A stretch of 55,030 nt of DNA from Candidatus Cloacimonadota bacterium. GTDB taxonomy: Bacteria; Cloacimonadota; Cloacimonadia; JGIOTU-2. This document shows positions 3 through 17,028 of this stretch, piece by piece; the stretch's first letter is position 1, and each line of letters starts with the position of its first letter. A program made the translations under genes and the position numbers. Below the pieces are notes generated by a model. That model worked only from the letters and a program-made list of their open reading frames with translations. It searched no databases and was not told where the DNA came from. The stretch is taken from NCBI GenBank assembly GCA_016932035.1, contig JAFGDR010000010.1, positions 1 through 55,030 on the forward strand. The letters run 5' to 3'.

Positions 3-227
3 GAAATAATCTTTCCATTTTATAACAAATGCAGATTTAGAATTATCAAACCAATAACCAGGTTATTTTTCAAATCTGAACCATTAATTGCTAACAACAA
101 CTTCTTTTTTCGTTTAACAAATGAGATTTTCATTGCATTATCAAATATTATTGATAAACATCTTAAAGGTGATGATGGAAATACATTCTTTGTGTTTGAT
201 AAAATAGCTGATAAACAAAGGAAATAA
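3..227 (+). CDS. C-terminal fragment of an unidentified protein (5' end outside window)
   Basis: An open frame runs from the window edge to a TAA at 225-227, giving about 74 residues that end in KIADKQRK. The stop overlaps the ATG of the next gene (TAATG), the junction style used throughout this locus, which supports a real gene. The segment is rich in Phe, Asn and Ile, with a terminal GNTFFVFDKI strand-like stretch of the kind seen at the C-terminus of some class I methyltransferases. That resemblance is too weak for a functional call. It is presumably the upstream member of the polysaccharide operon. Confidence 0.55.
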   Translation, partial: EIIFPFYNKCRFRIIKPITRLFFKSEPLIANNNFFFRLTNEIFIALSNIIDKHLKGDDGNTFFVFDKIADKQRK

Positions 228-1309
228 TGAACAATATCACAGTCATTGGAGCTGGAAATTCAGGTTTAGCGACCGCTGCATATCTTTCAATTAATGGGCA
301 TTCAGTACGTTTATGGAACCGCTCAAAAAGCACAATCAAGAAATTAATCAACACTAAATTGATCCACCTGAAAGGCATTATAAATCAGGATGCAAAACTG
401 GATATAGTAACAACTGATATAGTAAAAGCAACCAGAGATACAGCTCTTATCATGGTTACAACACCTGCAACTTCTCATGTTTCAATAGCGAATCTATTGA
501 GTAAGACACTTGATCCTCATGTTCCTATTATATTGAATCCGGGGAGAACCTTTGGTGCTTTAGATTTTGGCAACACCCTTTCATCAACAAATTCAAAAAT
601 ACCAACTATTGCAGAGACACAAACCATTGTATTTACCTGCCGAAAAACCTCCGAGGATACCTCAATAATATTAGCGATGAAAAAAGGCGTTTTAATATCG
701 ACATTAAGAAAAAATGATATAACTTCGTTGATAAATTCGATCCCTGCATGTTTAAAAGATAATTTCAAACCTACAAATTCTATGTTGTTAACATCAATTG
801 GAAACGTTGGCATGATACTTCACTGTGCACCGGTTTTACTCAATGCAGGTTGGATAGAATGCGAGACCGCAAGCTTTAAGTACTATTATAGTGGTATTAC
901 CAAGACAATCTCCGAGTTTCTTCAAAAAGTTGATGATGAAAGGGTACAGGTATCCAAAGCTCTCTGTTCTCCTGTCGAATCTCTGATTGGGTGGTTAAAA
1001 AGAAGCTATAATGCCAAAGGAAAGAATCTTTACGATTGCATTCATGATGTGAAATCCTATGAAACAATTGATGCCCCGAGAACATTGCAGCACAGATATA
1101 TCTTTGAAGACATACCTACAGGTCTTGTGCCTCTCGAAGCACTGGGCTTGAAGCTTGGTTTATCTATGAAATATACTTCAATAATAATTGATCTTGCTCA
1201 TATGCTTTTAAACACGGATTTCAGGGAAAGTGGCCGCAATCTAACAAATCTAGAGCTCAATATGCTTTCGACTGATGAACTTATTGAAAAACTAAGCAAC
1301 AGAAACTAA
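227..1309 (+). CDS. NAD/NADP octopine/nopaline (opine) dehydrogenase family protein
   Basis: 360 aa, full length for the family. The N-terminus carries a Rossmann dinucleotide-binding loop GAGNSG at residues 8-13. The C-terminal half resembles the helical opine-dehydrogenase domain, with a His-containing segment MILHCAPVLLNAG near residue 197 and an acidic YIFEDIPTGLVP segment near residue 290. These enzymes reductively condense the amino group of an amino acid with a 2-oxoacid, or run the reverse reaction. The stop overlaps the ATG of the ATP-grasp gene (TAATG), so the two are probably translationally coupled. Its place at the head of a surface-glycan locus suggests, by inference, synthesis of an N-(carboxyalkyl) amino acid used to decorate the polymer. 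Substrates cannot be read from sequence. Confidence 0.8.
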   Translation: MNNITVIGAGNSGLATAAYLSINGHSVRLWNRSKSTIKKLINTKLIHLKGIINQDAKLDIVTTDIVKATRDTALIMVTTPATSHVSIANLLSKTLDPHVPIILNPGRTFGALDFGNTLSSTNSKIPTIAETQTIVFTCRKTSEDTSIILAMKKGVLISTLRKNDITSLINSIPACLKDNFKPTNSMLLTSIGNVGMILHCAPVLLNAGWIECETASFKYYYSGITKTISEFLQKVDDERVQVSKALCSPVESLIGWLKRSYNAKGKNLYDCIHDVKSYETIDAPRTLQHRYIFEDIPTGLVPLEALGLKLGLSMKYTSIIIDLAHMLLNTDFRESGRNLTNLELNMLSTDELIEKLSNRN

Positions 1310-2520
1310 TGACTCCATCTCACCAAAGAATAGTACCACTCTATAGCACACCCGTGATTCTTGGTGGTGGCATTAATGGATTGGGAATTGCTAGAAGCTT
1401 TGGGGAGGAAGGAATTAAATCCATTGTTTTGGATACACATAAGGACCACGCTTTTTATTCTAAATATACAACTGGGTTGATTTGTCCCGATCCCTTATCA
1501 GATGAGAGGAAATTTATTGAATACTTGGTTCATTTTGGATTAACACTGAAAAAAAAAGGATTTTTGATAACAACAAGCGATAAGTTTCTTATAACTACCA
1601 GTAAGCACCAGGAAATTTTAGAAAAATATTATTATTACCCAATGTCTTCATGGAACATTCTGGAGAATTTAATCAATAAGGAAAAACTATATACACTTGC
1701 AGATAAGATAGGAATCGATACACCAATTACAGTAAAGACCTCAAGCATAGAAAGGATTAAGGATGTGATAAGTAAGCTTCAATTTCCTATTATCGTAAAA
1801 CCTTCAATTACTATTGGGTTTACACAAGCCTTCGGGAAAAAGGTGCTTATCATAAATACATATAAACAATTTGATAATTTTATAATAAAATTAGCATCGA
1901 CTCCATTTGCTCATCAACCACTTATAATTCAAGAATACATTCCCGGAAGTGTAGCACGACTATATACTATTACATCTTATGCCAATAGAGATCATGAAAT
2001 TATTGCCTATTCAATCGGTCACAAAATTAGGCAGGATCCGCCATTTGCTGGCACAATTACTTCCGGCAAAATACAGAATGTGTCTGAAATTTTACGCATA
2101 AGTCAAATGCTGATTAGAAAAGCAAAATTCTGGGGGATATCAAATATCGAATATAAAAAAGATGAGCGCAATGAAAGCTACAAGCTTATGGAAATCAATC
2201 CAAGAAGTGGCGTTTGGAATTATTCTGCAAAAGCTTCAGGAGTAAATATTCCACTTATATCTTATGAGGACTATTTTCATTTTACCTCTGGAAGACAAGC
2301 AGATAATGGAAAAAAAATCACGTGGATTTCTCTTGTTGATGACCTATCTTTATCTTTATCTGGCTTTAAAAAGATGGGTTATCCTGACGAAAGTTTATCT
2401 TTTCATAAATGGCTTTATTCTATCAGGGGAAAGAAAACTTTTGGAATTTTAAATGCTAAAGATATGAAGCCATTTATTAAGAAATTGTTCTCGAGATTTT
2501 TTAAGTATTTTAAAGTATAA
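1309..2520 (+). CDS. ATP-grasp family carboxylate-amine ligase-like protein
   Basis: 403 aa. The N-terminal pre-ATP-grasp domain begins with VILGGGINGLGIARSFG (residues 17-33). The central ATP-grasp fold shows PIIVKPS (lysine contacting ATP) and the late metal-binding motif LMEINPRSGVW. The family activates a carboxylate as acyl phosphate and joins it to an amine or thiol. The closest textual resemblance is to D-aspartate ligase or carboxylate-amine ligase-like proteins found in cell-envelope loci. It overlaps the opine dehydrogenase by one base, so the simplest inference is that it attaches the opine or another amino acid through an amide bond. Family confident; substrate unknown. Confidence 0.8.
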   Translation: MTPSHQRIVPLYSTPVILGGGINGLGIARSFGEEGIKSIVLDTHKDHAFYSKYTTGLICPDPLSDERKFIEYLVHFGLTLKKKGFLITTSDKFLITTSKHQEILEKYYYYPMSSWNILENLINKEKLYTLADKIGIDTPITVKTSSIERIKDVISKLQFPIIVKPSITIGFTQAFGKKVLIINTYKQFDNFIIKLASTPFAHQPLIIQEYIPGSVARLYTITSYANRDHEIIAYSIGHKIRQDPPFAGTITSGKIQNVSEILRISQMLIRKAKFWGISNIEYKKDERNESYKLMEINPRSGVWNYSAKASGVNIPLISYEDYFHFTSGRQADNGKKITWISLVDDLSLSLSGFKKMGYPDESLSFHKWLYSIRGKKTFGILNAKDMKPFIKKLFSRFFKYFKV

Positions 2521-2548
2521 AGGAAATACATAATTTTCATAATGTAAC

Positions 2549-4057
2549 ATGGATATATCAGTTAGGAATCGTGGTGTGAAGCTATTTCGTGGATCGATTC
2601 TGATAACGATCTCAGTTATCATTCAGATCGCTATTGGTTTCTTCATGCTCCCATTCCTCGTTCACAATCTTGGTGATAAGACATATGGTCTTTGGGTCCT
2701 GGTAATGACTTTTTTAGATTATTATGTATTGTTACGAATGGGATTCAGCACAGCTGTTGTACGCTTCCTCGCCAAAGCAATTGGAGAGAAGGATGAAAAG
2801 GGATTGTCTAAAATCACCAGCACCTCTTTCTTTATCTATTTAGGTGTTTCGGTTGCCATGCTTATTTTTACAATAGTACTGATATTTGGCGCAGAAATCA
2901 TAATTAAGAATCCTTCAAACCTAAAATTATTTCAGGTACTGATTTTAATATTAGGAATAAATACTGCTTTGTCACCACCCTTGAGTGTATATGGCGCTAT
3001 TTTGAACGCTTATATGAACTACAGCGTCTCAAAAATAGCCAACATAGTCACACTATTAATAAAAAATGGCTTAATCTTATTTGCTGTTAAGAACGGGAGC
3101 GGCTTATTATCCATTGCCTGGATTTATTTGATATGCAATATTACCGTTTCTGCATTCCATGTCATCTATGTTAGTTCACGATATCCCTTTATAAAAATCA
3201 AAATCAAATATTTTGATAAAACCAAATTTAAAACACTTTTCTCATTCTCTTTCTTCACATTTATTGCACAGCTGGCAGATACCCTAAGATTTAAAGTTGA
3301 TACCATAGTAATAACAACATTTATTGGTCTGGCTGCCGTGACCCACTATAATGTTGGCTTCCGTTTAATCGTATACTTTATCATGTTCTTTACAAATGCA
3401 ACAGGTATATTCCAAACATATATAAGCCAGGAAGAGGGTGCTGGCAACTATCAATCAATCAGAGATAAGTTTATGTTCATGACTAAGCTTTCCTCCTATA
3501 TTGCAGTTTTTATTGGATTGTCATTTATTTTTTATGGTAAAGCATTTATCATAAGATGGATGGGAGAAAGTTATTCAGATGCTTATATGGTTCTTCTTAT
3601 AATATCAATTGCGACGATCATCTTTTTAGCTCAGTTTCCAACAAAAACAGTGCTGTATGGAATTTCAAAAAATAAATTCTGGGCTTATTCTAATATTATA
3701 GAGGGCATTCTCAACATTATCCTGAGCCTTATCTTCGTGCAAAGGATGGGAATTAGTGGAGTTGCACTTGGAACTGCAATTCCGATGATTATTATGAAAT
3801 TAATCATTCAACCTATATATATTTCCAGAATTTTACATTTAGATATCAAATACTACTATTCTCAATTTATGATGGACACCTTAAAACCAGCAATATTTAT
3901 GTTCTTGTTCTTTTTAATTGCCAGGCAATTTCTTGTTCCATCGTATATGAGCATTTTTATAATCGGATTAATACAAACCGCTTTATTTGTTGCAATCTGC
4001 TATTTGTTTTTTTTCAACAAGGAGGAAAGACTGCTTATTAGGGGTGTTATTAGATAA
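2549..4057 (+). CDS. Oligosaccharide flippase (Wzx-like, MOP superfamily)
   Basis: 502 aa integral membrane protein with about 12-14 hydrophobic helices along its whole length. The first helix starts near residue 13 (FRGSILITISVIIQIAIGFF), and LPFLVHNLGDKTYGLWVL is the typical N-terminal pattern of polysaccharide-biosynthesis flippases. It would move undecaprenyl-PP-linked repeat units across the inner membrane for the periplasmic polymerase encoded downstream. It sits 28 bp after the ATP-grasp gene, and its stop overlaps the ATG of the pyruvyl transferase gene. Wzx proteins diverge too far to predict the glycan. Confidence 0.85.
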   Translation: MDISVRNRGVKLFRGSILITISVIIQIAIGFFMLPFLVHNLGDKTYGLWVLVMTFLDYYVLLRMGFSTAVVRFLAKAIGEKDEKGLSKITSTSFFIYLGVSVAMLIFTIVLIFGAEIIIKNPSNLKLFQVLILILGINTALSPPLSVYGAILNAYMNYSVSKIANIVTLLIKNGLILFAVKNGSGLLSIAWIYLICNITVSAFHVIYVSSRYPFIKIKIKYFDKTKFKTLFSFSFFTFIAQLADTLRFKVDTIVITTFIGLAAVTHYNVGFRLIVYFIMFFTNATGIFQTYISQEEGAGNYQSIRDKFMFMTKLSSYIAVFIGLSFIFYGKAFIIRWMGESYSDAYMVLLIISIATIIFLAQFPTKTVLYGISKNKFWAYSNIIEGILNIILSLIFVQRMGISGVALGTAIPMIIMKLIIQPIYISRILHLDIKYYYSQFMMDTLKPAIFMFLFFLIARQFLVPSYMSIFIIGLIQTALFVAICYLFFFNKEERLLIRGVIR

Positions 4058-5145
4058 TGATTATTTCTGATCGGATACAATTGATGCGCTTTGCCATGTC
4101 TCATTGGAAGACAATTTCAGGTCTTAATAAAAGAGCAATCGGCTATATAGGGTGGGTAGGACATAAAAATCTGGGTGATGAGGCTATGCTCATTGCATTC
4201 AAGAGCTTATTCAAGGCGCACACGATCTTCCCATATAGTAAAATTAAGAGTTATCCCCGTATGGAAAGCAAGCTGCGCCCAAAAGAATTATCGGCAATCG
4301 TGCTTGGTGGCGGAACACTGATCAATAGTCAAGGATCATTCGATATTTTTAAAAACACATTCAAAAATTACACTAATGGTATTAAATTCTCATTTGGGAG
4401 TGGCGTGAAAAATCCAGTATTCTGGAAAAATGTTAAGGGATGGAGTAACACTATATCTGAGTGGGCACAATATCTTAAAAAATGCGAATATGTAAGTGTT
4501 CGTGGTCCTTTATCCAAAGAAATTCTAAATGATGCTGGCTTGGATAAAGTTGAGTTAATCGGAGATATTGCACTAACCCTTGCTGGGGAAAATATGATGA
4601 AAAAGCAAAAAAGGAAATCGGTCGCTATCAATATCGGTGCATGCAGTGGTAGATTATGGGGTACTGAGGAATTGCTATTACAAAAGATGACGGAACTTAT
4701 TTATAAACTAATAGAGAAGGATTGGAATATTACTCTCTTCTCTGTATGGGATAAGGATGTGGATCTTATTAATATCTTAATAGAAAAAGTGGGGAAACCA
4801 ATACCAAAATTTGAAGGATTTCGTTCAATAGCAAAAACATTAAAATTCCTTGAGAAATGTGACGTCGTAATCGGGATGAAACTTCATTCAGTCATTTTAG
4901 CCCATTGTGCTTACACTCCGGCAATTATGCTCGAATACAGGCCTAAATGCCTTGATTATATGCTTTCTATGAATCTGGACAAGTATAATGTGAAAACAGA
5001 TCAGATCGAACCGAACCATGTCATGTCATTACTCAACGAAATTTATCAAACTTCAGAACAATACCAGTTTTTTCTATCAGGAAAAATCAAATATTATAAA
5101 AATCTCCAGAAGCAGGCAGCGATTAATTTAAATAAGCTTATATAG
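4057..5145 (+). CDS. Polysaccharide pyruvyl transferase family protein (WcaK/CsaB-like)
   Basis: 362 aa. The N-terminal motif GWVGHKNLGDEAMLIA matches the G-x-N-x-GDEA signature of the family, and the C-terminal half has VIGMKLHSVILAHCAYTP, corresponding to its GxRLH-type donor-binding motif. These enzymes transfer pyruvate from phosphoenolpyruvate to a sugar, forming a ketal that adds negative charge to exopolysaccharides; some relatives have other roles. It overlaps the flippase gene by one base and ends the first + block before the convergent sulfotransferase. With the opine dehydrogenase and ATP-grasp genes it suggests an acidic, amino-acid- or pyruvate-decorated glycan (inference). Confidence 0.82.
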   Translation: MIISDRIQLMRFAMSHWKTISGLNKRAIGYIGWVGHKNLGDEAMLIAFKSLFKAHTIFPYSKIKSYPRMESKLRPKELSAIVLGGGTLINSQGSFDIFKNTFKNYTNGIKFSFGSGVKNPVFWKNVKGWSNTISEWAQYLKKCEYVSVRGPLSKEILNDAGLDKVELIGDIALTLAGENMMKKQKRKSVAINIGACSGRLWGTEELLLQKMTELIYKLIEKDWNITLFSVWDKDVDLINILIEKVGKPIPKFEGFRSIAKTLKFLEKCDVVIGMKLHSVILAHCAYTPAIMLEYRPKCLDYMLSMNLDKYNVKTDQIEPNHVMSLLNEIYQTSEQYQFFLSGKIKYYKNLQKQAAINLNKLI

Positions 5146-5207: not shown

Positions 5208-6053
5208 TCAACTCAAATTTGCTAAATATTCTTTCTCCATCTTTTCATATAGGTCTTTACAGAGTTTATCAATTTCCGGTAACAATGCAAGTTTTGTTCC
5301 CTTACCTGTTGCTCTGGCATGCACTTCATCAACGATTTTATCCCCAGGATATTTAATCCTTAAAAAGGAATATAATCTTCTAATATTTTCAATTGGCTTA
5401 TTAACAAAACCTTCATATTTACACATCGTCACATCGTCTCTTTTATCTAATCCAAGCTCAAAGAATAAAGCATTTCTCGCATACCAGAAAAGGGCTGCTG
5501 CATCATAAGAACTCATTTGATCATAATAGTGTTCAAGCACAACTTTCCTGATGTTATCAGGCAGATTTTCTGACCTCCAATTATTTTTGTCAGCATATAA
5601 TATTGGGCGAAGATTTTTATGACCGTTATCCTTGCCGAAATGCGTTATATTCGAATATGCAACATCTTTATAATGTCTATAAATCCAGATTGCCTTTGAT
5701 CCGGGAAAATAGTCAAAATAACTGAGAATGTTTTGAAGTTCAACTAACGGTTTTGTAATGATAACTTTTGCATGCACCCTGCTGAAAATTTTTATTAGAC
5801 TCTCGAACGTATTGAAACGTATGTACGACTTTTTATCCTCAGAGGTTATAGCACTATGTTCATCCTCATATATCTTTGTTTGGAAATCTCTTTGAAAAAC
5901 TTTGACCATGATGCTTGTACCAGATCTTTGGCATGCAATAACATATACGATCTGTTTGAGTCCATTTTTGGAATATACTATAGGTTGAAGAATTGCTTTC
6001 AAAACAAGAAATACCCGAAATCTTGCTTTTTTAAAAACTCGGTTTATTTTCAT
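5208..6053 (-). CDS. Sulfotransferase family protein
   Basis: 281 aa from the chosen start. The PAPS 5'-phosphosulfate loop is visible as ACQRSGTSIMVK (residues about 40-51), and a 3'-phosphate-binding element as IYRHYKDVAYSNIT (Arg126, Ser134). It would transfer sulfate from PAPS to a carbohydrate hydroxyl or amine, fitting a cytoplasmic role in modifying the glycan precursor. I chose the ATG at 6053 over an upstream ATG at 6212. The 53-residue extension is Tyr/Ile-rich, would overlap the next gene head-to-head, and is not sulfotransferase-like. A TTGACA box on this strand also lies 36 nt before 6053. It is the only reverse-strand gene in this locus, so it is separately transcribed. Confidence 0.8.
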   Translation of the reverse strand: MKINRVFKKARFRVFLVLKAILQPIVYSKNGLKQIVYVIACQRSGTSIMVKVFQRDFQTKIYEDEHSAITSEDKKSYIRFNTFESLIKIFSRVHAKVIITKPLVELQNILSYFDYFPGSKAIWIYRHYKDVAYSNITHFGKDNGHKNLRPILYADKNNWRSENLPDNIRKVVLEHYYDQMSSYDAAALFWYARNALFFELGLDKRDDVTMCKYEGFVNKPIENIRRLYSFLRIKYPGDKIVDEVHARATGKGTKLALLPEIDKLCKDLYEKMEKEYLANLS

Positions 6054-6089
6054 AAACAACTGAAAAGTATTAATGTTTAAATCTGTCAA
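6054..6089 (-). promoter_or_regulatory. Putative promoter of the sulfotransferase gene
   Basis: A perfect TTGACA (minus strand, 6089-6084) begins 36 nt before the ATG. No Shine-Dalgarno-like sequence lies between them. This is one of the short-distance cases discussed as possible leaderless starts. Confidence 0.35.
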
Positions 6090-6159
6090 GAAAGAATAAT
6101 GTTCACTCTTGTAATCCTTTATGTATATGTATATTAATAGGATTTTATTTATCAATAAG

Positions 6160-6205
6160 TTGACAAACATTTTATGTTCCAAGAAATAAATGTGGAGTTC
6201 TGTAG
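6160..6205 (+). promoter_or_regulatory. Putative promoter of the export/kinase/Wzz block
   Basis: A perfect TTGACA at 6160-6165 starts 46 nt before the ATG at 6206. A GTGGAG Shine-Dalgarno-like element lies about 8 nt before that ATG. It faces away from the sulfotransferase promoter, so 6054-6205 is a divergent control region for the two transcription units. Confidence 0.35.
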
Positions 6206-7369
6206 ATGCCAAAAAAATATCTATTTTTTTTCTTGATTTTATCTATACTTTCCTGCATTCTTGATGCTGGAGGTGTTGAAGCACCTCTTGCAAAAGATGG
6301 GATAGATATAATTGAAGAAGAAAAAGATATTATAAGCGCCAACTTAAACAGGCTTAACCCACCCATAAGCGCTGAAGAATACAAATCGTTACAATTCCAG
6401 GAAGGCAACCTTGATTTTCTGTCTGCAGAGGAGCGAACATATTATATAACCGGCGGTGATATCCTCATTATTAAATTGCCAGACGAAGAGGAGTTTAGCA
6501 CCTTTGAAGTAAACTTTGAAGGATACATAACACTTCCCAAACTTGGCAATTTCAAGGCGGAAGGACTAACAATTGGCGAATTGGAAAAATCAATTTTTTT
6601 CAGTTTACCCCTCTATCTCAGAAGGCAGGCAGAAGTACAGGTGCAAATCAAAGAAAAGAGAAAATATATTCAGGTTCTAGGTTATGTTGTAACTCCTGGC
6701 TGGTACCTTCTCCCGGAGAATGCTGGCATTCAGGGAGCTTTCGTCGCAGCCGGGGGTATGATTGACGGCTCTATTCTTAATGAAATCAATTTATATAGAA
6801 CAATGTATAGTCTAAAGTCGGCTGAACAAAAGACTATCCTGGTCGACATGTTCACTTTCCTTACCTCTACAGATTATAATACTTTACCTCAAATCAAATC
6901 AAAAGATATAATTGTTGTTCCTATGACCCCACGGTTGGGTTCAATAAAAAGAACGCTTGGAGCCTATACACCTCCTCAAGAAAAATTAGAAACCGACACT
7001 GAGGAAAAAGTGAGAATTGCTGGAATGGTAAGAAATCCTAGCATGATTGAGCCGGTAAAGGGGAGTAATGTTCTTGATCTTCTTATCTCTGCCGGCGGCA
7101 CTACTAACGATGCAGATCTCAAACATATTTTCCTCGTAAAAAAATTGAAAGATGGAAACTATCGAACAAAAGTAGTAGACCTTGAAAAATACATTGAAGA
7201 TAAAAATTTCCAAGATATTCCATTTGTTGGTTCGGGTGAAACGATTTATGTACCCGAACAGAGAAAAACTTGGCTTTATAAAGCATGGAAAGGTTCCATC
7301 GATTTCTTAAAAGACTTCATGTATCTTATTTCTGCGTTTACAACACTCTATCTGCTTTCCAAACAATAA
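6206..7369 (+). CDS. Outer-membrane polysaccharide export protein with SLBB domains (Wza-like)
   Basis: 387 aa. Residues 1-20 form a signal sequence with a lipobox-like ILSC (Cys17), as in Wza lipoproteins. A Poly_export domain begins near GDILIIKLPDEEEFSTFEVN, followed by two SLBB-like beta-grasp repeats, VQVLGYVVTPGWYLLPENAG and a second around VRIAGMVRNPSMIEPVKGSN. A hydrophobic segment near the C-terminus (FMYLISAFTTLYLL) could be the outer-membrane helix. The protein would form the exit channel for the assembled polysaccharide. It leads the block ATPase, Wzz, ligase and glycosyltransferases; the next gene starts 3 bp after its stop. Confidence 0.85.
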   Translation: MPKKYLFFFLILSILSCILDAGGVEAPLAKDGIDIIEEEKDIISANLNRLNPPISAEEYKSLQFQEGNLDFLSAEERTYYITGGDILIIKLPDEEEFSTFEVNFEGYITLPKLGNFKAEGLTIGELEKSIFFSLPLYLRRQAEVQVQIKEKRKYIQVLGYVVTPGWYLLPENAGIQGAFVAAGGMIDGSILNEINLYRTMYSLKSAEQKTILVDMFTFLTSTDYNTLPQIKSKDIIVVPMTPRLGSIKRTLGAYTPPQEKLETDTEEKVRIAGMVRNPSMIEPVKGSNVLDLLISAGGTTNDADLKHIFLVKKLKDGNYRTKVVDLEKYIEDKNFQDIPFVGSGETIYVPEQRKTWLYKAWKGSIDFLKDFMYLISAFTTLYLLSKQ

Positions 7370-9186: not shown

Positions 9187-10677
9187 ATGGCAAGTCAAGG
9201 AACATTAACATATCCGGCAAGATATCAGATTAACCCCTATTATCAGCCAGTTTCGAACACGAGACTATTTTATTTCGTTGTATCTTTTTTTATAGTTCTC
9301 CAGGCAGTGGTTGTTTATCTTGATATTGAATCAAGAATGTTCATTGGATTTTGCTATCTAACACTGGTCCTTTTGTTTTTTTTCTCTTTAAATAAACCTG
9401 AACTTCCCATTTTTGCAATTACATTATATGTTCCTTTTAGCAAGATTATAATCGGTGACCTTTCTACAGCAATAAATTTCACAAACGTTCTACTTCTCAT
9501 CACCTTCTTCTCCTGGTTTATCAGCCATGAGTCGACTGAAGAACGATTTTTTGCTCGTACTCCCCTTAATTTTCCCTTATTGTTGTTTGCATTAATGGGT
9601 CTGATTTCTCTTGTTCAAGGTAGTTTTCTTCTTGAACAAGTCGGAGGTGGAAATGTAATATTCTCATTCTGGCGCTGGTATGTTCCAATGTTCTTGTATG
9701 TTATTGTCGTAAACAATATTCGTGATAAAGAATCTGTTAAGAAGTGTTTGGTTATTATAATGATTGCTGCTGTTGTTGTTGCACTGATTACTATTCGAGA
9801 ACATGCTAACATCGGTAATGTATCAACATGGACAAAGGCAAGAATAGGAGGTATCGCTGGAAATCCGAATACTCTTGGAACATTTTTCGTAAATTATGGA
9901 CCCTTACTTCTAGGTGTTTTTATTTATAATGCTCATAGAATTCGCAGTTGGTTCTTCATGTTTCTTTACTTATTATGTGCAAGGGGAGCTCATGTAACAT
10001 ACTCAAGAGGTACATGGTTAGCTTTTGCTACGGGCACATTGTTTATTACAATATTATCAAAAAGCAAAAAGTTAATCATTCCTGGAATTCTGCTTGTTGG
10101 TTTGATAATAATTAATCCGTCTGTACTTCCTGAAAGTATTGAAGGAAGATTCAGATCAACTTTTACCCGCGAGCAATCCTATCTTGAGCAATCGGTTGAA
10201 GAAAAAGTTGAAAAAAGTGCTTCAGATAGAATCATTATCTGGAAAGGTGCTTTGAACATGATAAAGCAAAACCCGATCCTAGGTTTTGGTTTCGGCACAT
10301 TCAACTATTATATAATGGATTATTCTGAAATTGAAATACCTCGTGATGCCCACAATACATATCTCCGAATTGCTTCTGAAATGGGGCTATTCGCCTTGTT
10401 GGTTTTTCTATCACTCCTTGTAATTGTTTTTCTAACTACTTTATGGGTCTTCCGACACACAAAGGATCCTTTCTTCAAAGGATGTTCAATAGGATATTTA
10501 GGCGGAATTGTGGGGCTTGCAGTTGCTTGTATGTTTGGCTCTAGAATGAATTCTCTCGAAATAGCTGGTCAATTCTGGATTATCGCAGCACTTATGCAAC
10601 GACTGAAAATGATCATTACACAGGAAATGATAGACAAAAACAAAGAGAGAGCTCAAACCAATGCACAAACCGCATAA
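9187..10677 (+). CDS. O-antigen ligase/polymerase family membrane protein (Wzy_C/WaaL-like)
   Basis: 496 aa with about 10-12 transmembrane helices and one large periplasmic loop. The loop shows the family hallmarks: an Arg-rich YSRGTWLAF segment before it, and IIWKGALNMIKQNPILGFGFGTF followed by a conserved His in IPRDAHNTYLRIASEMG. Such proteins either polymerise repeat units (Wzy) or ligate polymer to an acceptor (WaaL), and sequence alone does not separate the two. As the only such gene in this locus, next to Wzz, a polymerase role is the better guess. Its 3' end overlaps the next gene by 17 bp. Confidence 0.82.
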   Translation: MASQGTLTYPARYQINPYYQPVSNTRLFYFVVSFFIVLQAVVVYLDIESRMFIGFCYLTLVLLFFFSLNKPELPIFAITLYVPFSKIIIGDLSTAINFTNVLLLITFFSWFISHESTEERFFARTPLNFPLLLFALMGLISLVQGSFLLEQVGGGNVIFSFWRWYVPMFLYVIVVNNIRDKESVKKCLVIIMIAAVVVALITIREHANIGNVSTWTKARIGGIAGNPNTLGTFFVNYGPLLLGVFIYNAHRIRSWFFMFLYLLCARGAHVTYSRGTWLAFATGTLFITILSKSKKLIIPGILLVGLIIINPSVLPESIEGRFRSTFTREQSYLEQSVEEKVEKSASDRIIIWKGALNMIKQNPILGFGFGTFNYYIMDYSEIEIPRDAHNTYLRIASEMGLFALLVFLSLLVIVFLTTLWVFRHTKDPFFKGCSIGYLGGIVGLAVACMFGSRMNSLEIAGQFWIIAALMQRLKMIITQEMIDKNKERAQTNAQTA

Positions 10678-11887
10678 GAAAATAGCTTATATCCTATCAC
10701 AATTCCCGGAAACTCACGAAACCTTCATACTGAGAGAAGTTATAGAACTAAAAAAAAACAATATCATTTTAGAAATATTTTCTCTTAAAAAATGTAAAGA
10801 CAAAGTCATACACCCCCTTGCTCAGCAATTCCTGAGCAATACACATTACTCTTCTCTAATTTCAATTCCAATCATAAAATCACTTATTTTCTTTCTATGG
10901 AAAAAACCCTTTACATGCTTTAATCTTCTAGCCTATTTAGTTAAAAAAAACATCTCATCTTTTGAATTCCTGAAAAAATCTCTTGGAATACTCCCCATTT
11001 CGCTATATTATGCAAAACAGATATCCTCGAAAGGTATCTCGCATATCCATGCACATTGGGCAACAATCCCGACCACAAGTGCTATTATAATCTCCACTAT
11101 CCTGAACATTCCCTTTAGCTTTACTGCCCATGCATGGGACATTTTTCTGCCGAATCCTATGCTTAAAGAAAAAGTGCGTCGTGCTGAATTCGTAGCAACA
11201 TGCACTGGATACAACAAGCGATATCTGGATTCACTACTCGATCAAAGAGTGAATGATAATATATTCCTTAACTATCACGGCATCGATTTTGAGACATTAC
11301 CTAAAGTAAATAAGAATATCGAAGAGAATCTGATATTCTCTATAGGGCGTTTATGTGAACAGAAGGGATTTCCTTTCCTTCTTGAAGCATGTGCATTGTT
11401 GCGAGATCGTGGAATTGATATCAAATGCCTTATTGTTGGCGAAGGCCCGAACAGAAAATCACTAAGCAATACAATTGAACAATTAAATCTAACCGACCGC
11501 GTTTCTCTGATGGGCATGCAACCCCAATCATATATCTTTGAAATGTTCAATAAAGCGCGAATGTTCGTACTTCCATGCGTTATATCTAAAAATGGGGATC
11601 GTGATGGTATTCCAAATGTTATGATCGAAGCACTTGCAATGCGAACACCTGTCATTTCTACAACAGTTTCTGGTGTACCTGAGATTATTATTGATCATGT
11701 TACAGGTTTGACTGTTGAACCAAGAAACTCAGCTCAACTAGCTGATGCAATAATCGAAATGCTACGTAATCCAGAACAATCTTTTATGTATACTGAAAAT
11801 GGACGCAAGTTAGTAGAAGAGAAATTTGATATCAAAAAGAATATTCGGGAATTGGTTTCGATCTTTATTAATCAAGCTCAACTGTGA
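10661..11887 (+). CDS. Glycosyltransferase family 4 (WcaL/AmsK-like)
   Basis: 408 aa, GT-B fold. The N-terminal acceptor domain includes HIHAHWATIPTTSA and FSFTAHAWDIF. The C-terminal donor domain includes IFSIGRLCEQKGFPFLLEA and the E-x7-E region in its Asp-starting form, GDRDGIPNVMIEALAM, a pattern typical of colanic-acid WcaL/AmsK-type enzymes. It would add a sugar from a nucleotide donor to the growing lipid-linked repeat unit at the inner membrane face. It overlaps the polymerase gene by 17 bp and the GT4-GT4 gene by 4 bp. Confidence 0.85.
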   Translation: MHKPHKKIAYILSQFPETHETFILREVIELKKNNIILEIFSLKKCKDKVIHPLAQQFLSNTHYSSLISIPIIKSLIFFLWKKPFTCFNLLAYLVKKNISSFEFLKKSLGILPISLYYAKQISSKGISHIHAHWATIPTTSAIIISTILNIPFSFTAHAWDIFLPNPMLKEKVRRAEFVATCTGYNKRYLDSLLDQRVNDNIFLNYHGIDFETLPKVNKNIEENLIFSIGRLCEQKGFPFLLEACALLRDRGIDIKCLIVGEGPNRKSLSNTIEQLNLTDRVSLMGMQPQSYIFEMFNKARMFVLPCVISKNGDRDGIPNVMIEALAMRTPVISTTVSGVPEIIIDHVTGLTVEPRNSAQLADAIIEMLRNPEQSFMYTENGRKLVEEKFDIKKNIRELVSIFINQAQL

Positions 11888-14136
11888 TGAACAAGCTGAA
11901 CGTCCTATATATCATTTGGTCACTCGATCAGGGAGGAGCTGAACGGGTTGTTATAGATCTGGCAAAAAATACAGACAAAATACAATTCAACGTAACCATC
12001 TGCTGCCTGAATGAAAAGGGCACCTATGCACATGAAGCAGAAAAAGCAGGTATAAAGGTTATACCCCTACACAAGCTACCAAAACTCGATCCGTTCATCA
12101 TATTTAAAATTAGCAGACTGATCAAAAAAAAACATATTGATATTGTCATTACTCATCTATGGACATCTAATTTTTGGGGAAGGATTGCAGCTTTCATCTC
12201 CGGAGTAAAAGTAATTATTGCAACAGAACATACAACAGATGAAAATCGTCCCTGGTATTATCACCTCATTGACCAGATTCTTGCCAAGATCTCAACTAAG
12301 ATCATCGCTGTATCCACAAGTGTAAAAGCATTCCATCAAAACAGATCTCATATTCCACCATGTAAATTCGAAGTAATCAATAACGGTATCGACATAAAGA
12401 AATTTAATGTTGAAATCAATAAAGAAGACAAAAGGAAGGAATTTGGTTTTATCCCAACTGATTTTGTGATTGGACTCTTCGGGCGTTTTGTTCCAGCAAA
12501 AGCACATGAAGTTCTTCTTCAATCACTACAGAAATTAATAACAAAATATCCAAACATAAAAGTGCTTTTTGTTGGCAGTGGTCCAACTGAAGATCAGATA
12601 AAAGAAATTGTCCGTGAGTTTGGTCTGGAAAATCATGTTATTTTTGCTGGATTCCGGAACGATATACCTGAATTATACCAGATCCTCGATCTCTTTATTC
12701 TTCCCTCTGAGCGTGAAGGTTTTCCTATTACACTTCTCGAAGCTATGACTTCTGGAATTCCAGTTATTGCAACAGATGTGGGAGGCAATTCAGACATAAT
12801 TAAAGATGGAAGAAATGGATTTATCATTGAACCAAATAATGTTGAAGCATTAACTCAAAGGATCGAATATTATATTGAGCATCCCGATGAAGCAGATATT
12901 TTTGCTAACAAAGCTCAGTCATCTGTCCAAAAGCATTTCACTTCTCAGATTATGACGAGAAATACAGAACAGATGCTCATCAGGCTTTATGGTAAACAAG
13001 TCATAAAGAAACAAAAAATAAAACTCCTTCTTGTAATCGACCACCTTGATCCCGGGGGGGCACAACGACAGATAATCGAGCTTATAAAGCGTCTTCCAAG
13101 ATCGTCATTTGACATTTCATTGTGCAGTCTAGATGGCGCACGATCTTCACTTGCTAATGAAATCGAAGAGTTGGGAATTCCGCTATATTCGATAAATCAG
13201 CATGGATTTTTCGATACTAAAGCATTACTATCATTATATAAAATTATAAAAGGTCATGCTTTTGATATAGTTCATACTTATCTTTTTACTTCCGATGTTT
13301 ACGGTAGAATCGCAGCTTTTTGTGCACATACTCCGGGTATAATTTGTTCTTTGAGGAGTGTTGATACCTGGAAAAATCCATTCCACATATTAGTCGACAG
13401 AATACTCGCACAGATCACAGATATAATAATCGTTAATGTAAAATCTATCATTCCATTTCTAGCGGATGGAGAACACATCGCATCTCAGAAGATTCATACA
13501 ATCTACAATGGCATCGACCTTGAACACATTCTGTCCCATATATCCGACATCCCTGTAAGACAAATGCTCCATTTACATGAAAATGAAAGGCTCGTTGGAA
13601 TCTTCGCACGAAATGACCCAATAAAAGACCATATGACGTTTTTCAGAGCAGCAAAAATCATCCTATCTAAGCACAAGAAGGTTAAATTTCTTGCGATGGG
13701 AGATGGAATGAGTGATGAAGCTATGCAGTCGCAAGTCGATATACTTGGCATACAAGATAAGGTCATCCTTCTCGATCATTCAAATAATTATCTTGATAAC
13801 GTTGCTTCTGTGGATGTTAGTGTTCTGACATCTTTAATTGAGGGTTGTTCGAATGTCATTCTTGAATCAATGGCGTTAAGAAAACCAGTGGTTGCGACAT
13901 CGGTCGGGGGAAACCCAGAACTCGTTGAAGATGGAAAAACAGGTTATCTTGTTCCTCCAAAAGCACCCGAAAAGCTAGCAGAAAAGATAATGCAATTACT
14001 GAGTAATCCTGAAAGGTGTGAATTTTTCGGAAAAAATGGACAACAAAGAGTTAAAGAATTCTTTTCTATGGATAAAATGGTTGATGATACGATTGATGTA
14101 TATAAAAATACATTGAAAAATAAAAAGAGAATATGA
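11884..14136 (+). CDS. Double glycosyltransferase: two GT4 modules fused in tandem
   Basis: 750 aa, about twice a normal GT4. Module 1 (about residues 1-375) starts NVLYIIWSLDQGGAERVV and has its donor E-x7-E motif in EREGFPITLLEAM near residue 276. Module 2 (about 378-750) starts again with KLLLVIDHLDPGGAQRQI and has EGCSNVILESMAL near residue 653. Both carry the N-terminal GGAxR loop, IxNGID and a late GG-N-x(4,5)-DG segment, so both look catalytically complete. They would add two successive sugars. The linker is only a few residues (GKQVIKKQ). There is no internal stop or frameshift, so this is a true fusion. It overlaps its neighbours by 4 bp on each side. Confidence 0.87.
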   Translation: MMNKLNVLYIIWSLDQGGAERVVIDLAKNTDKIQFNVTICCLNEKGTYAHEAEKAGIKVIPLHKLPKLDPFIIFKISRLIKKKHIDIVITHLWTSNFWGRIAAFISGVKVIIATEHTTDENRPWYYHLIDQILAKISTKIIAVSTSVKAFHQNRSHIPPCKFEVINNGIDIKKFNVEINKEDKRKEFGFIPTDFVIGLFGRFVPAKAHEVLLQSLQKLITKYPNIKVLFVGSGPTEDQIKEIVREFGLENHVIFAGFRNDIPELYQILDLFILPSEREGFPITLLEAMTSGIPVIATDVGGNSDIIKDGRNGFIIEPNNVEALTQRIEYYIEHPDEADIFANKAQSSVQKHFTSQIMTRNTEQMLIRLYGKQVIKKQKIKLLLVIDHLDPGGAQRQIIELIKRLPRSSFDISLCSLDGARSSLANEIEELGIPLYSINQHGFFDTKALLSLYKIIKGHAFDIVHTYLFTSDVYGRIAAFCAHTPGIICSLRSVDTWKNPFHILVDRILAQITDIIIVNVKSIIPFLADGEHIASQKIHTIYNGIDLEHILSHISDIPVRQMLHLHENERLVGIFARNDPIKDHMTFFRAAKIILSKHKKVKFLAMGDGMSDEAMQSQVDILGIQDKVILLDHSNNYLDNVASVDVSVLTSLIEGCSNVILESMALRKPVVATSVGGNPELVEDGKTGYLVPPKAPEKLAEKIMQLLSNPERCEFFGKNGQQRVKEFFSMDKMVDDTIDVYKNTLKNKKRI

Positions 14137-15117: not shown

Positions 15118-17028
15118 ATGAAAATTTATACACGAGATTTTATTTCAATTATCATCGTTGTGATTGTCATCATCGTTTTCCACGTTTTGAATATTTTCCC
15201 TTACATCTCTCAACTATTCTCACCCATTCAAAACAAGGTATATGATACAATCGAAGATGCTGGAGATATTTTTGATGAAACAGAGCAGGCAGGTTATAAT
15301 CCTGAAGAAGGCTACTTCATGCTCAGCGATTTTGAGACGCCAGAAGAGTTGCAAAAGTGGAGATATGAAGATGTTATACTCTATCAATCGAATCAATATG
15401 TTTCCAGCGGCAACCAATCGGGAAAAGTTGAATTCCTCGCTAATAGAGGTTCAGCACCAAAACTTTTCTTGCAGTATTTCCCAAAACGGTGGTCAAACTT
15501 CGAAGCCCTGAATTTCGAAATATATAATCCATCCGAAAAGAAAGTTAGGATCATACTTCAGATAAAAGACCGCAGTGAGAACCGATTCAAATATGACCTC
15601 TATCTTGAGCCACAGAAATGGAATACGTATTCAATAGCTATTGATGATATGTCGGACAAAGTGAATGTAGATAAGATCGTTGATCTCAATTTTTTCCGAT
15701 GGAAACCATCCCAGGATGAAACAATTTATGTGGATGATGTAAAATTGATTAGTTCTCAATATGAAGATAAGCAGGTATATGTTACCCCTGCTCAAACTCA
15801 GCAGAAAGTAAAAAACATCACAACCCAGCCCGAATATGAGATATCAAAAACATTTCATTCAGAAGGAAATACAATAACATTCAGGGTAAAAAATCCGAAT
15901 AAAATTGATTTAAGGCAAACGCCTTGTACAGGCAATGTAGACTTCCCTCAGGGAAAAGTTTTCGATAAAACAACGATGCTCCTTAAAGGGCCAGATGGGC
16001 ACGACATTCCTTACCAGATAAAACCTCTAAACACCTGGCAGGATAACAGTTTTAAGCAGGCACAGCTCGATTTCCAGGCAGACTTTCAATCAAATCAGGA
16101 AAAACAGTTCTTGCTTCTCTTTGGAAAAGATCTCGCAAAAATGAATTTTAAATCGGTTATTACCGTCCGCTATAAAGAAGACGTGATACAGATAAGCACA
16201 GGAAAGTTCCGTTTCAACCTGAGTAAAAATCATTTTACACTTTTGGATAAAGTGTGGCTGGATTCAAATGACGATGGCTATTTTTCAGATAATGAACTTG
16301 TTTCAGAAAATCAAGATATTATCATGACACATAATGGAATTTTCTATCAAAGCTCATTCGACTATTCCACCTACTCAATCGAAATGATAGAAGCTGGACC
16401 CCTTCGCACAACATTTCAGGCTGACGGATATCTTCGAAGTAATAGCGGATATGATCTATGTAAGTATGAAGCTTTGATAACTGCTTTTGCAGAACAGAGT
16501 TTTGTTGAAGTCACATTAAATTTCATTTTTTCCAAGACCGCCCCTATCGAGTCCGCAGCACTCTATGTGCCTTATTCAGAGGATATTACCCAGGTTTATT
16601 CGCCAAACACTGGTGTGCAGATGAACCTACCTGTAATGATCTATCAGTCTGATGTTGAGAAGTCGGAAGTACGCAATCAGGGGCGCAAGCTGCTTTTCGA
16701 TCAGAACCTTTCACGCTGGGTCGATGCAAGTAATGTGGTCGGTGGAGTTATGGTTGCAATAAAACCATTCTGGGATCTCAGTCAGTTCGGATATTATATA
16801 CAAAAAAACGATGTAACTCTCATGCTTTGGCCTCCTTACTCTCAGGAAATCGATATTAAATATACACTTCAACATAAAATGCAGACCAATTATGACTTCT
16901 GCAGAAACCAGGATTTTGACAGAACGCATGATGTGCTTATCTATTTCCATACAAGCGATGTCGAGGAATTAAGAACAACTGAAGTGGCAGAGTCTTTTCT
17001 CAATCCGGTCGAATTTATCTCAAAATAG
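15118..17028 (+). CDS. Membrane-anchored carbohydrate-active protein: CBM-like plus PcRGLX/YetA-like RIFT barrel
   Basis: 636 aa. An N-terminal transmembrane anchor spans residues about 9-30. Residues about 65-215 look like a jelly-roll carbohydrate-binding domain (SDFETPEELQKWRYED ... IYVDDVKLISS). From about 235 onward the text resembles the PcRGLX/YetA-like RIFT-barrel proteins: a VDFPQGKVFDKTTMLLKGPD strand pattern, then GPLRTTFQADGYLRSNSGY. An EF-hand-like calcium loop DSNDDGYFSDNE lies at residues 382-393. Relatives include exo-rhamnogalacturonan lyases, so it may cleave or hold the glycan in the periplasm. This is inferred from remembered family patterns. It lacks the helical C-terminal domain expected of a full lyase, so a non-catalytic role is also possible. 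Confidence 0.55.
   Translation: MKIYTRDFISIIIVVIVIIVFHVLNIFPYISQLFSPIQNKVYDTIEDAGDIFDETEQAGYNPEEGYFMLSDFETPEELQKWRYEDVILYQSNQYVSSGNQSGKVEFLANRGSAPKLFLQYFPKRWSNFEALNFEIYNPSEKKVRIILQIKDRSENRFKYDLYLEPQKWNTYSIAIDDMSDKVNVDKIVDLNFFRWKPSQDETIYVDDVKLISSQYEDKQVYVTPAQTQQKVKNITTQPEYEISKTFHSEGNTITFRVKNPNKIDLRQTPCTGNVDFPQGKVFDKTTMLLKGPDGHDIPYQIKPLNTWQDNSFKQAQLDFQADFQSNQEKQFLLLFGKDLAKMNFKSVITVRYKEDVIQISTGKFRFNLSKNHFTLLDKVWLDSNDDGYFSDNELVSENQDIIMTHNGIFYQSSFDYSTYSIEMIEAGPLRTTFQADGYLRSNSGYDLCKYEALITAFAEQSFVEVTLNFIFSKTAPIESAALYVPYSEDITQVYSPNTGVQMNLPVMIYQSDVEKSEVRNQGRKLLFDQNLSRWVDASNVVGGVMVAIKPFWDLSQFGYYIQKNDVTLMLWPPYSQEIDIKYTLQHKMQTNYDFCRNQDFDRTHDVLIYFHTSDVEELRTTEVAESFLNPVEFISK

Follow-up and report, generated by a model that had tools for sequence, protein, structure and literature searches.

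The first complete genes of a 55,030-nucleotide stretch of a Candidatus Cloacimonadota genome (assembly GCA_016932035.1, 2.44 Mb; contig JAFGDR010000010.1, our contig G000:C10, from its base 1; hereafter the window) encode an opine dehydrogenase (ODH) and an ATP-grasp ligase, and lie among genes for surface-glycan synthesis. The reading that we favour, while giving it slightly less than an even chance, is that a B12 protein, a methyltransferase, the ODH and the ATP-grasp ligase make up a glycan-decoration module, of which the window genes form the downstream part, and that this module makes an acidic opine, possibly derived from methylaspartate, and links it through an amide bond to a sugar amine. 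A glutamate-mutase-like B12 protein would deliver an acidic amino acid produced by rearrangement, most plausibly one of the 3-methylaspartate type; the ODH, using NAD(P)H, would condense pyruvate with this product, or else with aspartate or glutamate, to yield an N-(1-carboxyethyl) amino acid; the methyltransferase would methylate either the opine or the sugar; the ATP-grasp ligase would activate a carboxylate of the opine and form an amide with the amino group of a repeat-unit sugar; and the Wzx and Wzy proteins, judging by their families, would export and polymerise the decorated unit. What the analysis shows directly are the genes, their neighbourhoods, conserved residues and model matches; all substrates, the sugar acceptor and the succession of steps are inferred.

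The predicted type of product exists, since amide-linked N-(1-carboxyethyl) amino acids are documented on O-antigens of Providencia, a genus that the earlier note on this DNA had named for such amino acids: alanopine on Qui4N of Providencia alcalifaciens O35 and carboxyethyl-lysine on GalA of P. rustigianii O14 (PMC10609480). Those decorations are known from chemistry and carry alanine and lysine, whereas the amino acid predicted here is acidic. Our literature search found no paper on genes that make and attach polysaccharide opines, and none joining an ODH with an ATP-grasp protein or an opine dehydrogenase with glutamate mutase. The module would provide named, testable genes for a class of polysaccharide modification so far described chemically.

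The open reading frame (ORF) list and Pfam bear out the four adjacent genes that the earlier note had described (ODH, ATP-grasp ligase, flippase and pyruvyl transferase), including their coordinates, families and the one-base overlap of the first two. The ODH gene (227-1309, + strand, 360 amino acids) matches PF02317 Octopine_DH at 132.1 bits (cut-off 30), and its product is closest to the N-(1-carboxyethyl)norvaline dehydrogenase (CENDH) 1bg6 of Arthrobacter (E = 6.6e-57). With CENDH and with the mODHs of a 2024 study on ODHs from hot springs (PMC10787698) it has in common the PF02317 fold, the Rossmann GxGxxG motif (G8/G10/G13) and the catalytic His-Asp dyad, H199 and D295 aligning with H202 and D297 of CENDH. 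Unlike both, this predicted opine dehydrogenase is encoded among glycan genes and beside an ATP-grasp gene. In the hot-spring study, a preference for L-Asp was traced to Arg at position 111 and Gly at position 198 of ArODH numbering; ArODH itself has Ala and Asn at these positions and the acid-preferring mODHs have Arg and Gly, the Arg/Gly pair accompanies L-Asp/L-Glu preference, and exchange of both residues switched the substrate (PMC10787698). The window ODH resembles the mODHs at precisely these two aligned positions, with Arg107 (codon at 545-547, + strand) aligned to 111 and Gly195 (809-811, + strand) to 198. This match to the acid-preferring enzymes suggests that its partner is an acidic amino acid, which would fit the product of a methylaspartate-type mutase.

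An alignment-based scan of GTDB genomes for relatives of the ODH yielded 80 related loci. The fourteen closest relatives share 45-56% identity with the window ODH and come mostly from Bacillota and Bacteroidales. In a tree, the window ODH falls within a 17-member clade with full support (100/100). The His-Asp dyad is conserved in essentially all ODH clade members, and equivalents of Arg107 and Gly195 occur in 85 of the 86 aligned; the only exception (L130) lies on a short contig that also lacks a B12 match. No matches to the ODH alignment were found in viral contigs; plasmid matches were mostly rhizobial and below 30% identity, and the best of them had no ATP-grasp gene beside it.

The partner found most often with this clade is a B12 protein: in 69 of 79 related loci it is at most two genes away from the ODH, with no B12 match farther off, although these locus counts are not independent events. 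Across the 125 genomes of the phylum, strong matches (>100 bits) to the ODH and to the B12 protein occurred in the same five genomes (G000, G009, G086, G088 and G092), a coincidence with one chance in 2.3e8 if the two were independent and kinship is ignored. Several features connect the B12 family with glutamate (methylaspartate) mutase, GlmS/GlmE. The cobalamin-ligand His and the motif Gly are present in 76/76 B12 proteins, while the Asp two positions before the His is replaced by Cys in 46. The AlphaFold2 (AF2) model of the L069 homologue (mean predicted local distance difference test score 83.8) had as its best match the TIM barrel of glutamate mutase 1cb7_B (E = 8.3e-10, TM 0.60 by target), which supports a GlmE-type barrel fold for that homologue; this and the other predicted models are of single chains built from alignments of 11-13 sequences. 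For the L206 homologue, the best match of the B12 domain was methylaspartate mutase subunit S, at a score under the cut-off of that model. Four loci (L105, L201, L202 and L206) have an accessory gene of the GlmL type next to the B12 gene or between it and the ODH, three of the calls passing the cut-off of the GlmL equivalog model and the fourth resting on Pfam MutL. Co-occurrence of GlmL across the phylum was also considered and proved uninformative, with homologues in 122/125 genomes.

The prominence of the B12 protein lends itself to another explanation, in which the ODH makes no opine and acts as a reductase or amino-acid dehydrogenase on the mutase product, the ATP-grasp ligase then attaching a simple modified amino acid. 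Annotation of PF02317 members goes by similarity, and since the B12 protein is the commonest partner, the mutase product may be the true ODH substrate; the near-universal His-Asp dyad and the L-Asp opine-specificity residues in 85/86 members speak against it, and we consider this explanation quite unlikely.

The ATP-grasp gene (1309-2520, + strand, 403 amino acids) encodes a predicted carboxylate-amine ligase of the L-amino-acid type, matching ATPgrasp_Ter at 32.6 bits (cut-off 29.1) and CPSase_L_D2 at 28.2 bits (cut-off 19.8). Its metal- and ATP-binding residues E295, N297, R299, K124 and K164 are conserved or nearly so. The predicted model, confident to about residue 340 and poor over residues 341-403, best matched the L-amino-acid ligase RizA (E = 7.8e-18); RizA and YwfE/BacD are the closest solved folds, at 14-17% identity, and differ in that their products are free dipeptides. 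Another parallel is Neisseria PglB2, a phosphoglycosyl transferase (PGT)/ATP-grasp protein that makes a glyceramido sugar (PMC11130364). There too an ATP-grasp domain acylates an amino sugar in a glycan pathway, and the domain architecture equals that of a PGT/ATP-grasp fusion found beside a related ODH (L072:11084-12946). However, the window ATP-grasp protein is unfused and of another subfamily, and the PglB2 product is glyceramido rather than an opine.

Three types of ATP-grasp protein adjoin the ODH in the related loci: the window type, also present in L102; the type of L069, L070, L072 and L170; and a Ddl-like type. All ten ATP-grasp profile matches among the ODH loci lay within two genes of the ODH, and the 614 other ORFs gave none (Fisher p = 8e-6); two of the counted loci had supplied profile seeds, and with these set aside the figure was 8/8. 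An ODH with any of the three types was found in 10/79 loci, of which four are glycan loci (L069, L070, L072 and L102) and six, with the Ddl-like type, belong to other contexts. The earlier note had reasoned that its proposal would fail if the pair occurred mainly outside envelope loci, a check that came out half in its favour: four of the ten ODH-ATP-grasp loci are glycan loci, while the ODH itself is found mainly outside envelope loci. A single-protein search of genome contigs with the window ATP-grasp sequence found no relative, and viral contigs yielded distant matches only. Within the phylum, relatives of the ATP-grasp protein occur in glycan loci, and in 4/8 cases they immediately adjoin a DegT-family gene.

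These neighbours bear on a reversed linkage, in which the ATP-grasp ligase would activate the carboxylate of a sugar uronic acid for coupling to an amine on the opine, the arrangement seen in P. rustigianii O14. A structure of this type is known (PMC10609480). Nevertheless, the only amine of an Asp/Glu-type opine is secondary and hindered, while in the Providencia structure it is the free alpha-amine of lysine that is bonded, and the DegT and deacetylase neighbours of related ATP-grasp genes point to sugar amines; we regard the reversed linkage as very unlikely.

The adjacency of ODH and ATP-grasp genes in glycan loci, which the earlier note had proposed looking for, recurs in L069/L172, L070, L072/L173, L170 and L102. 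All four families of the favoured module (B12 protein, methyltransferase, ODH and ATP-grasp ligase) are adjacent in two Lachnospiraceae genomes, in the order ATP-grasp, ODH, B12, methyltransferase and DegT aminotransferase in L069/L172, and DegT, ATP-grasp, ODH, B12 and methyltransferase in L170. In Christensenellaceae (L072/L173) the order is DegT, B12, ODH and fused PGT/ATP-grasp, the fusion having been seen only in L072. In a Bathyarchaeota genome (L102), a racemase-like gene, a window-type ATP-grasp gene, the ODH, a methyltransferase, a PIG-L deacetylase and glycosyltransferases lie together; 16 other genomes of the same class with a related ODH had no matching ATP-grasp gene nearby. The idea of an opine decoration module contained in the earlier note is therefore upheld as regards the ODH and ATP-grasp genes in glycan loci, the catalytic dyad and the RizA-like fold, but it had not foreseen the B12 and methyltransferase partners.

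In the window genome, these two partners come into view through the contig end. The earlier note had placed the module at the head of the glycan locus, a claim that does not hold, as the 5' boundary is simply the end of the contig and the upstream ORF is cut: positions 3-227 (+ strand) encode the C-terminal 74 amino acids of the product of a gene that is open at its 5' end and whose TAA stop shares one base with the ODH ATG. One-base overlaps join this ORF to the ODH gene, the ODH gene to the ATP-grasp gene, and the flippase gene to the pyruvyl transferase gene. The locus probably continues on contig C40, the last 5.3 kb of which carry two GT2 genes, a polysaccharide deacetylase gene, a gene for a 621-amino-acid B12 protein and a methyltransferase gene running off the end. 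This last gene (L156:7214-7789) directly follows the B12 gene on the same strand, and its best matches are the methyltransferases of L069/L172 and L170. We infer C40 to be the neighbour of C10 and take ORF 3-227 to be the tail of the C40 methyltransferase. The ORF was also compared with B12 proteins as a possible piece of one, without a match.

Several observations weigh against the favoured module. The join of C40 to the window is itself presumed, and a search of the phylum's 125 genomes turned up no homologue spanning both the C40 methyltransferase piece and ORF 3-227. Neither the window nor the C40 end showed a DegT aminotransferase gene, those of this genome being located on other contigs, so a sugar amine would have to come from elsewhere, for example through the nearby polysaccharide deacetylases. 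At E ≤ 0.01 the B12 protein of the window genome fell into none of the Pfam or NCBIfam families, GlmE and GlmS included, and an hhalign comparison with one glutamate mutase sequence was weak (probability 1%, covering the C-terminal part). Because no sequence profile places this protein, we call it glutamate-mutase-like rather than a glutamate mutase, from which the family further differs in combining the B12 domain and the barrel in one chain. The L102 genome has no B12 homologue, so the mutase step is not obligatory. Finally, most ODH-B12 pairs lie outside glycan loci, and their general role may therefore be metabolic.

This last point is also the starting point for a third alternative, namely that the product of the ODH-B12 pair is a soluble metabolite or a small peptide that has nothing to do with the glycan, with the ATP-grasp protein acting on it as a dipeptide-type ligase and the module merely situated among glycan genes. 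The closeness of the ATP-grasp model to RizA, a free L-amino-acid ligase, fits this view, as do three clusters of the same phylum (L040, L041 and L042) that combine ODH, B12 protein, a Ddl-like ATP-grasp protein and an alanine-racemase-like protein, with no glycan gene recognised in the stretches examined. Yet the module recurs in glycan loci of Lachnospiraceae, Christensenellaceae and one Bathyarchaeota genome, and both the PGT fusion in L072 and the DegT aminotransferase neighbours argue for a role in glycan synthesis, leading us to consider a soluble product unlikely.

Beyond the window, the core pair of ODH and B12 enzyme looks like a widespread, apparently undescribed pathway. It is conceivable, albeit doubtful, that the B12 enzyme and an acid-preferring ODH form an undescribed two-step pathway from a C-branched acidic amino acid to an opine across many bacterial and archaeal groups, and that in a few lineages this pathway was recruited, together with a methyltransferase and different ATP-grasp ligases, for glycan decoration.

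The ODH-B12 pairs are found in varied surroundings. In L127 and L106 (ODH near base 4043 and 9968, respectively) the pair adjoins histidine-biosynthesis genes, L106 also carrying a Ddl-like ATP-grasp gene, and gene sizes suggest similar neighbours in L076, L079, L085, L098 and L103. Genes resembling asparagine synthase are next to the ODH, or not far from it, in L115, L118, L119 and L137 (by Pfam) and in L123 (by the start of the sequence). In Heimdallarchaeota (L081, L091, L097 and L113) the pair is followed by a biotin-carboxylase-type gene, checked by Pfam in L081 only, and a gene of about 159 amino acids.

The glycan setting of the ODH and ATP-grasp genes is sound, because sulfotransferase-like, export, Wzy/ligase-family and GT4 genes lie downstream. 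On the + strand, the ATP-grasp gene is followed by a Wzx-type flippase (2549-4057, 502 amino acids; Polysacc_synt PF01943, 57.4 bits, cut-off 28.2) and a polysaccharide pyruvyl transferase (4057-5145, 362 amino acids; PS_pyruv_trans PF04230, 109 bits, cut-off 25.3). A sulfotransferase-like protein is encoded inside the locus on the opposite strand (5208-6212, - strand; PF13469, 34 bits). The + strand then carries a Wza-type polysaccharide export protein (6206-7369; PF02563 and SLBB), a Wzy/O-antigen-ligase family protein (9187-10677; PF04932, 82 bits), a GT4 glycosyltransferase (10661-11887; PF00534) and an ORF with two GT4 domains in tandem (11884-14136; PF00534). Farther along, among further glycan genes, positions 15118-17028 encode a 636-amino-acid product with a weak PcRGLX-like match. 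Outside the phylum's own loci, a relative of the window ATP-grasp gene on a Priestia megaterium plasmid (L058) adjoins a PIG-L deacetylase gene and a GT4 gene.

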